Source of the DNA: an uncultured Clostridia bacterium
GTDB taxonomy: Bacteria > Bacillota > Clostridia > Lachnospirales > Lachnospiraceae
NCBI GenBank assembly: GCA_946184675.1
Contig: CAMHFW010000005.1
Coordinates: forward strand, 1-32,022
Length of the DNA stretch: 32,022 bases
Direction: 5' to 3'
Shown: positions 25,830-29,988 of the stretch, piece after piece
How the letters are laid out: every line of letters starts with the position of its first letter
Position numbering within the stretch: position 1 is the stretch's first letter
Position numbers and translations under genes: made by a program
The notes under the pieces: generated by a model
The model's input: the letters and a program-made list of their open reading frames with translations, nothing else
The model's database searches: none
What the model was told of the DNA's origin: nothing

Positions 25830-26564
25830 TTACAAATCTACTTTTCTCTTAGGATCATGGAATTCCGGGAGACGTTTTTCATAGGCTGCCACTGCCACTT
25901 CCTCAAAGGCCAGGGTCACATCTCCCGCTCCAGCAAGCCGCAGCAGGTATTTGGCAAAATACGGATTCATGATCAGGATAGGACCGGTCAGGTATGTTCC
26001 AAAGAAATTGCCCATCCGGATACCCTCCTGGTCAAAGGCCTTATTCAAGCCATAACCGCGGATCTTCCGGAAACAGTAACCTTCCGCCTTGTCAGCGTAG
26101 GTCTGCGTAAACTGGCTCTTAAAGCCAATGATTTCCATGTCCTTTCCTGTGTCGTCTGTCAGTGTCCCCAGAAACATGGAATTGTGGCGCTGCATCATGC
26201 GGCGGACAGCATATCCCTCATAAAGACCCAGACAGGGAATCCGGCTGCCGTCATCCTTTTCGATATAGGAACCAAATACTTCAAAGGCATTACCTGTAAA
26301 AAGCATGACTTTGCCGGCATCAATCAGCTGACGGAGCCTGTCTGTATAAGGACGAAGTCTGTCTATGACATACTCCTGCTCCTTCTCGGGCATGGCTCCC
26401 ATATAGATCATATCCACATCTTCCGTCACAAAGCGCGGCGTCTCATTCAGGGAAGTATAGATAAACTCTGCCTGTCCCTGCAGGCTTTTCTCCAGGTATG
26501 TGACATTAAACCTGTCACCGTAGAGGTTGCAGGCTTCTGTGTAAAGTGCTTCGATTTTAATCAT
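25830..26564 (-). CDS. GatD-like type 1 glutamine amidotransferase, predicted catalytically degenerate
   Basis: 244 aa; fold and operon position of GatD (overlaps the MurT-like gene), but TGNAF replaces CGGYQ and GTYLTGP replaces GTYLHGP. Confidence 0.85.
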   Translation of the reverse strand: MIKIEALYTEACNLYGDRFNVTYLEKSLQGQAEFIYTSLNETPRFVTEDVDMIYMGAMPEKEQEYVIDRLRPYTDRLRQLIDAGKVMLFTGNAFEVFGSYIEKDDGSRIPCLGLYEGYAVRRMMQRHNSMFLGTLTDDTGKDMEIIGFKSQFTQTYADKAEGYCFRKIRGYGLNKAFDQEGIRMGNFFGTYLTGPILIMNPYFAKYLLRLAGAGDVTLAFEEVAVAAYEKRLPEFHDPKRKVDL

Positions 26565-27952
26565 GCCTGCTTCCCTCCCCTGATGGCGTCTTTGACAGTC
26601 TGGCGGATCTTTTCATAATTTACCATCTGATGCATATCATAAATGATGTGCACGTCAATATCCTTGCTGAAATGCATCAGTTTCGGAATATCGCTGATGT
26701 TTTCTGTGCAGTGAATACGGTCTTCATCGATTCCCGCAAGAAGCATGCGGAGCAGATAATCCTTGGAACGCACACCGATAACTACAATATTTTCTATCAG
26801 AGGATCATTCAGGAATTCAAAATCCGTATCGTACATATAGGTCAGATTTTCCGATGCAATGACGTTGTAATCGGTATCCTCGATCATGAGAACGATTTCC
26901 TTGCGGTGAGGCAGATTTCTGACATAGTCAAATACCACGCTGACCGCCGGCGCGATCCAGCTCTTAGCCATGGTGGAAATGACCTGGATCCCGTTTACAA
27001 CTTCGAATCTGTACCGGGAATCCACGATCCTGGTATCCGCAAGGGCATCGCAGATCTTGTCTGCAGAAACGCCGAAAGTTCGCAGGAAGGTAACGACCGT
27101 CAGCTCATTATAGATGTTAAAGATACTATCAGATACCATGGGATACTCTTCCCGCATTCCATTATGCTCAATGGTGACGAGACGGTTATCATAATCGATA
27201 GCGCTTACGTGGAAATCCGGTTCCGGAGATCGGAGTCCGCATTTTGGACAGTGCACTCTGCCGATCTGGTTATAGCGGACATAGTCATACTCCAGTGTTT
27301 CCTGACAGCGGGGACAGATTCTCATATCATTGAGAATATTAAAAGGCTCTGTCCGGTCTTCCGGCTGGCGGTCAATGGAGTAATAAATCCGCTTATTATC
27401 TTTCTTCAGGCGGCTGCTTAAGATATCATCCGCATTGAGGAAAAGGGTCGTGGTATCGGGCATGGCCTGCTCAATGATATCGTAGATAAAATGGGGATGA
27501 GCATTTCTCATGCAGGAATCCCGAAAGAGATTGGTGCAGATGGTATAGTCCGGTCTCACGTAAGGATAGATCCTGAGAGAGCTTCTCTCATCCACCTCCA
27601 GAACTGCCAGAGGATAACGGGGTTTATTGGACAGGCTGACGCCGTTCATCAGACAGGTCGCGATTCCGGAAGCGATATTGCCGCCCTCCCGGTTGGAAAG
27701 AACCTGATAGCCGCTCTTTTCCAGGACATCGACAATCATATTCGTTGTCGTTGTTTTTCCGTTTGTTCCTGTTACAGTCACAATTTGGGGAGGTCTGCCT
27801 ATATACTTCAAAAAGTCCGGGCAGATCTTAAGAGCAACCTCTCCCGGAAGGTTGGTGCCGCCCCGGTGCATGACTTTTCCAAGCACCTTGCAGCCAATCA
27901 CAGCTAATTTCCCTGCAAGCAGGGCGCAATAAAATCTAAACATAATAATCAA
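26561..27952 (-). CDS. MurT-like Mur ligase family protein (lipid II isoglutaminyl synthase-type)
   Basis: 463 aa; VTVTGTNGKTTTTNMI P-loop; Cys4 zinc ribbon CPRC...CPKCG; C-terminal MurT domain. Confidence 0.9.
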   Translation of the reverse strand: MIIMFRFYCALLAGKLAVIGCKVLGKVMHRGGTNLPGEVALKICPDFLKYIGRPPQIVTVTGTNGKTTTTNMIVDVLEKSGYQVLSNREGGNIASGIATCLMNGVSLSNKPRYPLAVLEVDERSSLRIYPYVRPDYTICTNLFRDSCMRNAHPHFIYDIIEQAMPDTTTLFLNADDILSSRLKKDNKRIYYSIDRQPEDRTEPFNILNDMRICPRCQETLEYDYVRYNQIGRVHCPKCGLRSPEPDFHVSAIDYDNRLVTIEHNGMREEYPMVSDSIFNIYNELTVVTFLRTFGVSADKICDALADTRIVDSRYRFEVVNGIQVISTMAKSWIAPAVSVVFDYVRNLPHRKEIVLMIEDTDYNVIASENLTYMYDTDFEFLNDPLIENIVVIGVRSKDYLLRMLLAGIDEDRIHCTENISDIPKLMHFSKDIDVHIIYDMHQMVNYEKIRQTVKDAIRGGKQA

Positions 27953-28006: not shown

Positions 28007-28035
28007 ATTGTAACACAAGCGTCAAGTTCTGTCGA
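28007..28035 (-). promoter_or_regulatory. candidate sigma-A promoter for murT/gatD-like operon
   Basis: Minus strand TCGACA-17 nt-TACAAT, about 55 nt upstream of the 27952 start; followed by a GCGGC/GCCGC leader hairpin (27970-27987). Confidence 0.6.
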
Positions 28036-28174: not shown

Positions 28175-28209
28175 CCTGCCGCTCTGTTCGCAGCTTTTAG
28201 CTGCTCACT

Positions 28210-28281
28210 GTCGCGGCTTTCGCCAGATTACAGCCACCATCAAGCCATGCCGCCGGTCCGCAGGCATGCCGCAGTGCCTGC
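28210..28281. repeat. left flanking copy of direct repeat bracketing the array
   Basis: GTCGCGGCTTTCGCC (28210-28224) and CATCAAGCCATGCCGCCGGT (28238-28257), plus hairpin GCAGGCA/TGCCTGC (28260-28281). Confidence 0.75.
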
Positions 28282-28304
28282 CAGAAGATTTGTTGTATGA
28301 CAAA

Positions 28305-28632
28305 GCAGTGCATAGTTAGTTAATATCCCTTTTCCACTGCCTTCTCTTTAAATATTCTGCACCAAAAGCAGTTTTGTTAAGAGTTTTACTTTTTTCCACT
28401 GCCATAACACTAAGCATACTATTGTTAAAGCAGTTTTTTTAGATTAATTATAAATCCCCACTGCCTGTAAAGCAGTGATTTCAGAGCATTTATTCCCCTG
28501 CACTGCAATCTACAAACTTCTCAGTATACCAAGGCAGTGCTTTTTTAGTTAATTTCTCTTTTCCACTGCCAATGGTCTATATTTACTGCATAGTAAGCAG
28601 TGATTTTGAATAGATGTGCTGCTCTCCACTGC
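28305..28632. repeat. array of six diverged palindromic units GCAGTK-N23/24-CACTGC
   Basis: Units at 28305-28340, 28368-28402, 28430-28464, 28472-28506, 28534-28569, 28597-28632; gaps 27, 27, 7, 27, 27 bp. Confidence 0.92.
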
Positions 28633-28652
28633 CTGCCCTGCTTATCTCATAC

Positions 28653-28745
28653 GTCCGCGGCTTTGACCTTTCTTCAGTGCCGCATCGAGCCATGCCGCCG
28701 GTTCATAAAATGCTTTGCATTTTATTCACGGTCGCGGCTTTCGCC
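28653..28745. repeat. right flanking copy of direct repeat plus hairpin
   Basis: GTCCGCGGCTTTGACC (28653-28668) and CATCGAGCCATGCCGCCGGT (28683-28702); ATAAAATGC-TTT-GCATTTTAT hairpin (28705-28725); GTCGCGGCTTTCGCC again at 28731-28745. Confidence 0.75.
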
Positions 28746-28750
28746 GTATG

Positions 28751-28813
28751 CTCATATAGAAAGACCCCCCTGCCTTCGTGCGAGCACGATGCAGGGGGGT
28801 CTTTTTATATGAG
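28751..28813. terminator. strong bidirectional terminator-like hairpin downstream of tuf
   Basis: CTCATATAGAAAGACCCCCCTGC / GCAGGGGGGTCTTTTTATATGAG, 23-bp stem with one G-T mismatch, inner CGTGC/GCACG loop stem. Confidence 0.85.
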
Positions 28814-28835: not shown

Positions 28836-29988
28836 CTATTCGATGATCTCGATTACTCGGCCTGATCCTACTGTGTGGCCACCCTCACGGATAGCGAATG
28901 TAAGACCCTGCTCCATAGCGATCGGGTGAAGAAGCTTAACTTCCATAACTACGTTGTCACCAGGCATGCACATGGGAACATCCTCAGGAAGGCTGATGGT
29001 TCCGGTGATGTCGGTTGTTCTGAAATAGAACTGCGGGCTGTAGTTGTTTACGAAAGGAGTGTGACGGCCGCCCTCTTCCTTCTTAAGAACGTAAACCTGA
29101 AGCTGCAAGAACCTGGCCTCTCTCGATCTCGTCTCTCTTAACACCACGAAGGAGTGCGCCAACATTGTCGCCGGCCTCAGCATAGTCAAGAGTCTTACGG
29201 AACATCTCAAGACCTGTGCAGACAACCTTTCTAACCTCTTCCTTAACACCAACGATCTCAACTTCGTTGTTGACATTGATAGTACCTCTCTCTACACGAC
29301 CGGTAGCAACGGTACCACGACCGGTGATGGTGAATACGTCCTCGACGGGCATAAGGAAAGGCTTATCAACGTCACGCTGAGGATCCGGAATGTAGCTGTC
29401 AACAGCGTCCATAAGCTCCATGATCTTGTCGCCCCACTCGCTGTCGGGATCTTCAAGAGCCTTCAGAGCGGAACCCTGGATGATCGGGCATCCCTCGAAC
29501 CCATACTCGTTAAGGATATCTTCGATATCCATCTCAACGAGCTCAAGAAGCTCAGGGTCGTCAACCATGTCGATCTTGTTCATGAATACTACGATGTAAG
29601 GAACACCTACCTGTCTGGAAAGAAGGATGTGCTCTCTTGTCTGAGCCATAACACCGTCAGTAGCAGCAACTACGAGGATAGCGCCGTCCATCTGAGCAGC
29701 ACCGGTGATCATGTTCTTGATGTAGTCAGCATGTCCCGGGCAGTCAACGTGTGCGTAATGTCTCTTCTCAGTCTCATACTCAACGTGTGCGGTGGAGATT
29801 GTGATACCACGCTCTCTCTCTTCGGGAGCCTTATCGATATTCTCGAAATCAACAGCTGCGTTGCCGGCTACTCTCTTGGAGAGAACCTTTGTGATTGCTG
29901 CAGTAAGAGTTGTTTTGCCGTGGTCAACATGTCCGATGGTTCCGATGTTGCAATGCGGCTTAGTACGCTCGAATTTAGCTTTTGCCAT
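28836..29988 (-). pseudogene. tuf: elongation factor Tu, frameshifted by an internal deletion
   Basis: N-terminal 301-aa ORF (29083-29988) to ...[12 protein letters not shown]; the C-terminal part ([16 protein letters not shown]...VIEIIE) continues in another frame to 28836. Junction at about 29100-29103. Confidence 0.93.

Follow-up and report, generated by a model that had tools for sequence, protein, structure and literature searches.

Inverted GCAGTG half-sites spaced near whole helical turns: a dispersed intergenic repeat in Lachnospiraceae and a candidate docking array for a putative DNA-binding protein

BOX elements of Streptococcus pneumoniae are modular, variable-copy intergenic repeats of a low-GC Gram-positive bacterium, whilst NrdR boxes represent a different kind of arrangement in which paired operator boxes are held at whole-turn spacing, about three turns apart. 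Paired whole-turn operators usually comprise two boxes and are found at promoters. REPs are palindromes of 20-40 bp, mostly with unpaired GTAG or CGTC tags (PMC2817692, PMC3733652), and are usually present in more than 100 copies per genome (PMC2817692); short inverted repeats of this type often lie between unidirectional or convergent genes (PMC3733652). The locus analysed here, in an uncultured, gut-type member of the Lachnospiraceae, resembles REPs and BIMEs in that its repeats are intergenic, palindromic, clustered and regularly spaced, with alternating orientation.

The array lies between tuf and a murT-like gene on a contig that we call C5, within the window (the whole stretch of 32,022 nucleotides that was analysed). 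It is built from two inverted half-sites, GCAGTG (F) and CACTGC (R), and the features of the locus are as follows.

26561 to 27952, minus strand: murT-like gene downstream of the array, with homologues in all six genus members (1-5 matches each)
28007 to 28035, minus strand: promoter-like site TCGACA-17-TACAAT with TG before the -10, between array and murT (consensus match only)
28271 to 28276, no strand assigned: extra outlying F half-site GCAGTG (GCCGCAGTGCC), 34 bp ahead of unit 1
28305 to 28632, minus strand: whole array of six inverted-repeat units and 12 half-sites, from direct reading and a script
28305 to 28340, minus strand: unit 1, 36 bp, reading GCAGTGGAAAAGGGATATTAACTAACTATGCACTGC on the minus strand
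28368 to 28402, minus strand: unit 2, 35 bp, F half-site altered to GCAGTT
28430 to 28464, minus strand: unit 3, 35 bp, F half-site altered to GCAGTT
28472 to 28506, minus strand: unit 4, 35 bp, after a 7-bp gap from unit 3 (step 42)
28534 to 28569, minus strand: unit 5, 36 bp, loop 79% identical to that of unit 1
28597 to 28632, minus strand: unit 6, 36 bp, from the half-site script
28760 to 28805, minus strand: terminator-like hairpin after tuf (AAAGACCCCCCTGC..GCAGGGGGGTCTTT), read directly, which parts tuf from the array
28836 to 29988, minus strand: tuf (EF-Tu) in two overlapping frames, ORFs 29083-29988 and 28836-29276

The F half-sites (GCAGTG or GCAGTT) start at 28305, 28368, 28430, 28472, 28534 and 28597 and alternate with R half-sites at 28335, 28397, 28459, 28501, 28564 and 28627; just two of the 12 carry a change, in each case a single one (GCAGTT), and a near R half-site, TACTGC, stands at 28584 within the array. 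Unit lengths run 36, 35, 35, 35, 36 and 36 bp, with F-to-F steps of 63, 62, 42, 62 and 63 bp and gaps of 27, 27, 7, 27 and 27 bp. The original prediction had described six units with these positions, steps and gaps, and both direct reading and the script matched it exactly. On the sense strand of both tuf and murT, the minus strand, the type-a half (GGCAGTGG-purines) lies 5'. Unit 1 scores 33.3 bits against the R1 model, whose training set included unit 1 itself, and by eye it resembles a unit from E. uniforme (GCAGTGTAAAAGAAGGATAT..ATGCACTGC).

The array is real and non-random. The 370 bp from 28281 to 28650 contain 13 GCAGT/ACTGC words (the 5-mers of the half-sites), compared with a mean of 1.25 (sd 1.08) and at most 7 in 20,000 dinucleotide shuffles of the same region, which excludes a chance origin; the background over the whole window is 1.05 per 370 bp. 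Other details of the surroundings were also recorded. The terminator-like hairpin was not called by our pattern scan, which takes loops of 3-8 only, and the same promoter and terminator scan found no minus-strand promoter-like site between this hairpin and the array. The split tuf frames suggest a short deletion with a frameshift near 29100, which could be an assembly error or mark a damaged second copy. On either side of the array, at 28205-28257 and 28683-28745, lies another repeat pair, TCAC[T/G]GTCGCGGCTTTCGCC and CATC[A/G]AGCCATGCCGCCGGT, with both members present on each side (95% identical) and arranged as A B array B' A'; this pair was not found in the other scanned loci of the host genome.

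Recurrence of the unit within the genome was one of the checks proposed with the original prediction, and it was borne out. The three-half-site pattern F-R-F gave 9 forward and 10 reverse matches in the host genome, with 0 and 0 for a reversed-pattern control. In total there are about 19 units at five loci in 1.9 Mb (the genome being 87% complete), and a covariance model of the unit recovers 17 host units as well as 6 in E. uniforme. The four further host loci, with gene names taken from reading ORF translations, are these.

C10, 19020 to 19407: array of seven units of a 62-bp repeat, between divergent ackA and a sortase-like gene, upstream of ackA
C18, 3175 to 3354: array of four units between convergent pncB-like and gltD-like genes, after pncB
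C22: single unit, with both neighbouring genes on one strand
C1: single unit upstream of the rpsJ/rplC operon

The host arrays occupy co-directional, convergent and divergent gaps alike. C10, C22 and C1 also contain a tight CACTGC-NNN-GCAGTG arrangement that lies off the phasing described below.

Outside the host, the family is rare and sporadic in the roughly 400 Lachnospiraceae genomes sampled. The F-R-F pattern, sought in 299 family genomes, occurs only in the host, in E. uniforme ATCC 35992 and in G288, where the single match may be due to chance (we estimate that about one is expected). E. uniforme has two arrays at unrelated loci which are 82% identical over 265 bp, one of them inside the fab operon between fabG and fabF. 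The second (L058 7360-9876) is flanked, by eye, by genes for an Rpn-like (PD-(D/E)XK) and an HNH-like protein. A second motif, AAGCAAGTT/AACTTGCTT, recurs in both E. uniforme arrays (L057 and L058), there in both orientations, and at L036 7021-7408. A scan of named genomes revealed a two-unit array in a Pseudobutyrivibrio MAG. The five congeners of the host gave only background matches and no array, and a DNA search with the whole array against 60 relatives returned only itself. The covariance model, run on 397 family genomes, gave one match per genome beyond the host and E. uniforme, that in G005 representing both strands of one place; the portion of these extra matches that we inspected consists of single units without arrays, many lying in the starts of MATE-type transporter genes, in other coding regions or in ordinary terminators. 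Ordinary terminators with GGCAGTG..CACTGCC stems were also seen in other Lachnospiraceae (for example L108 and L119, among L102-L129). Viral contigs gave 0 matches to a four-half-site pattern and many, probably by chance, to looser ones; the C10 array had no match among plasmids, nor the E. uniforme array among phages. Further afield, an Oligosphaeraceae MAG (L083 6117-6400) carries a five-unit tandem with GGCAGTGGAACC..GGCACTGC, which has the same half-site and a 35-bp unit by hand count but otherwise looks different, and which represents either convergence or a wider family.

What is kept among these copies, and what is not, is most informative as to how they may be read. Within the C5 array, pairwise identity is 95% for the half-sites, 49% for the loops (37% in shuffles) and 36% for the long gaps (30% in shuffles). 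The proposed check, whether termini and spacing are conserved whilst loops vary, had a positive outcome, and the gaps vary as well. The step run 62, 42, 62, 63 is common to C5 and C10, their gap lengths are equal (27 and 7, with one of 28) and their half-site cores are intact, and their loops are alike (45% vs 33%), yet the sequences of their long gaps are unrelated (27% identity vs 26% when shuffled). The same holds across arrays, which retain GCAGTG half-sites and the unit length but have unrelated gap sequences. That the word and the distance are kept whilst the filling is free is our main argument for sequence recognition under a spacing constraint. G-C/A-T covariation, which had been put forward as a check, was not found, with none of seven stem pairs showing a compensatory change, and this suggests that it is the word itself that is kept rather than the pairing. 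A long foldback was also considered as a structure and was ruled out, since the spacers pair at 24-34% about the centre.

The distances themselves follow the helix. F and R start 29-30 bp apart at every intact unit of the host, E. uniforme and Pseudobutyrivibrio arrays, the R-to-F distances are mostly 11-13, 23 or 33-35 bp, and the step classes of 62-63, 52-53 and 40-42 bp fall near multiples of 10.5 bp, as first proposed for C5. Rayleigh analysis at 10.5 bp gave R=0.91 over all steps and R=0.86 over step classes, with a mean phase of -0.3 to -0.1 bp, although the steps are not independent, the units being duplicated, and so the phase p-values overstate the case. The half-sites are thus phased to the helix, as in an array of DNA-binding sites, with the exception of extra R' half-sites in the C10 spacers, which lie 9 bp before F and outside the phasing.

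Our preferred reading, to which we would give a probability of around 40%, is that these arrays belong to a small family of non-coding repeats, apparently not described before, that are dispersed among intergenic sites, and that a putative protein recognises their half-sites as DNA. The building block would be the unit of 35-36 bp with its inverted pair of GCAGTG half-sites, joined head to tail at spacings that would bring the half-sites close to one face of the helix. By analogy with the proteins that bind E. coli BIMEs, a candidate sequence-specific and probably dimeric protein may bind cooperatively to the half-site pairs along the length of the array, with an effect on local chromosome organisation or on spread of the repeat rather than on control of murT or tuf. 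Of the modes considered, binding by a protein on DNA appears the most likely; occupancy of the half-sites themselves is a prediction. Recurrence at C10, C18, C22, C1 and in E. uniforme and Pseudobutyrivibrio, in gaps of every gene orientation in the host, speaks for DNA-level recognition, as do the selective retention of half-sites and spacing, the helical phasing and the stems that lack compensatory change. The non-independent steps, the off-phase half-sites of C10 and two hints of an RNA role, considered below, speak against it. Should a protein bind here, the arrays would point to a new factor, architectural or mobilising, and provide a ready-made DNA bait for it, and the spacing retained over saturated gap sequence is a clear signature for in silico searches. 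A bolder and rather improbable version is that this is a new chromosomal docking array, in which copies of a conserved six-base word, alternating in orientation and placed about three helical turns apart, would be read in Lachnospiraceae by a putative oligomeric protein of a nucleoid or mobilising kind; given the Oligosphaeraceae tandem, it would possibly extend beyond that family. In the part of the literature that we covered, we found no published description of such a Lachnospiraceae repeat.

A passive dispersed repeat, MITE-like or minisatellite and without host function, is possible but in our view doubtful. Such a repeat would spread from one intergenic site to another through recombination or a transposase and grow by slippage, the half-sites acting as termini for the mobilising enzyme. 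The rare, sporadic distribution at non-orthologous positions, the 62-bp tandem of C10 with its 93% matches, the 82% identity of the E. uniforme arrays at two unrelated loci, and half-sites at or near the ends of homologous blocks would all be in line with this. Passive decay, however, would not predict the C5 gaps, which look saturated whilst half-sites and spacing are intact; moreover, we noticed no target-site duplication, and Y1_Tnp was not found in the host genome at its 87% completeness.

An element acting at the RNA level, in which sense-strand hairpins of the units would stabilise mRNA, mark processing sites or terminate transcription, is in our judgement unlikely. We keep it under consideration because at five of five co-directional sites (C5, C22, both E. 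uniforme arrays and Pseudobutyrivibrio, by our own reading and with a loose assignment for the last) the purine-rich half is oriented in the sense direction, and because fabG and fabF flank one of the E. uniforme arrays. The units of C18 and Pseudobutyrivibrio form strong hairpins, long and stable (z about -8 to -10), with a TTTTTT tail in C18, and some stem changes are G-U tolerant on the sense strand. In C5 and C10, however, hairpins are weak. The C5 array folds better than its shuffles (z of -4.3 on the minus strand and -2.9 on the plus), but its best fold is one long-range structure and not six unit hairpins, and z-scores across arrays have no consistent strand preference. The missing compensatory changes also weigh against RNA, at low power given that the word hardly varies, and Rfam gave no match above the gathering threshold. 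For the C5 copy, the cassette of RNA hairpins suggested in the original prediction is thus weakened, its better-than-shuffled folding notwithstanding: the array lies between the terminator-like hairpin of tuf and the promoter-like site of murT, no minus-strand promoter-like site was found between that hairpin and the array, and folding across arrays favours neither strand consistently.

An operator array dedicated to murT or tuf would fit the position of the array between tuf and the murT promoter-like site, but is very improbable: the same arrays stand beside unrelated genes (ackA, pncB, fabG-fabF and elsewhere), the five congeners have background matches only, and the flanks of those of their murT homologues that were examined (~1.5 kb) contain no tuf match. 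A link to the tuf-murT gap was not supported. A CsrB-like sponge, whose GGA-bearing hairpins would titrate CsrA, can be dismissed as next to negligible, since although most sense-strand loops contain GGA by eye, CsrA (PF02599) was not found in E. uniforme (99% complete), G288 (98%) or the host (87%), and among the four genomes examined it passes the family cut-off only in the Pseudobutyrivibrio MAG.

Set against known systems, the array shares with BOX elements a modular, variable-copy, intergenic character in a low-GC Gram-positive bacterium, but its sequence is different, the boxA-B-C order is not seen, and it has inverted half-sites at helical spacing. It is like the NrdR type in holding half-sites about three turns apart on one face of the DNA, which suits cooperative binding, but it differs in its word, in having up to 14 half-sites and in occupying non-promoter gaps as well. 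REPs and BIMEs are the closest kind, yet here there are about 19 units at five loci rather than the usual >100, the building blocks are 6-bp half-sites that are not self-palindromic, no GTAG or CGTC tag was read by eye beside the C5 units, and no RAYT/Y1_Tnp was found in the host at 87% completeness (counts are 0 in the host, 3 in E. uniforme, 3 in G288 and 1 in Pseudobutyrivibrio). A RAYT-mobilised REP was marked down on this last count. Given the differences in copy number, tag and transposase, we do not file the array as a REP; at most it may work like a BIME, and we judge it to be a variant within the dispersed intergenic inverted repeats.
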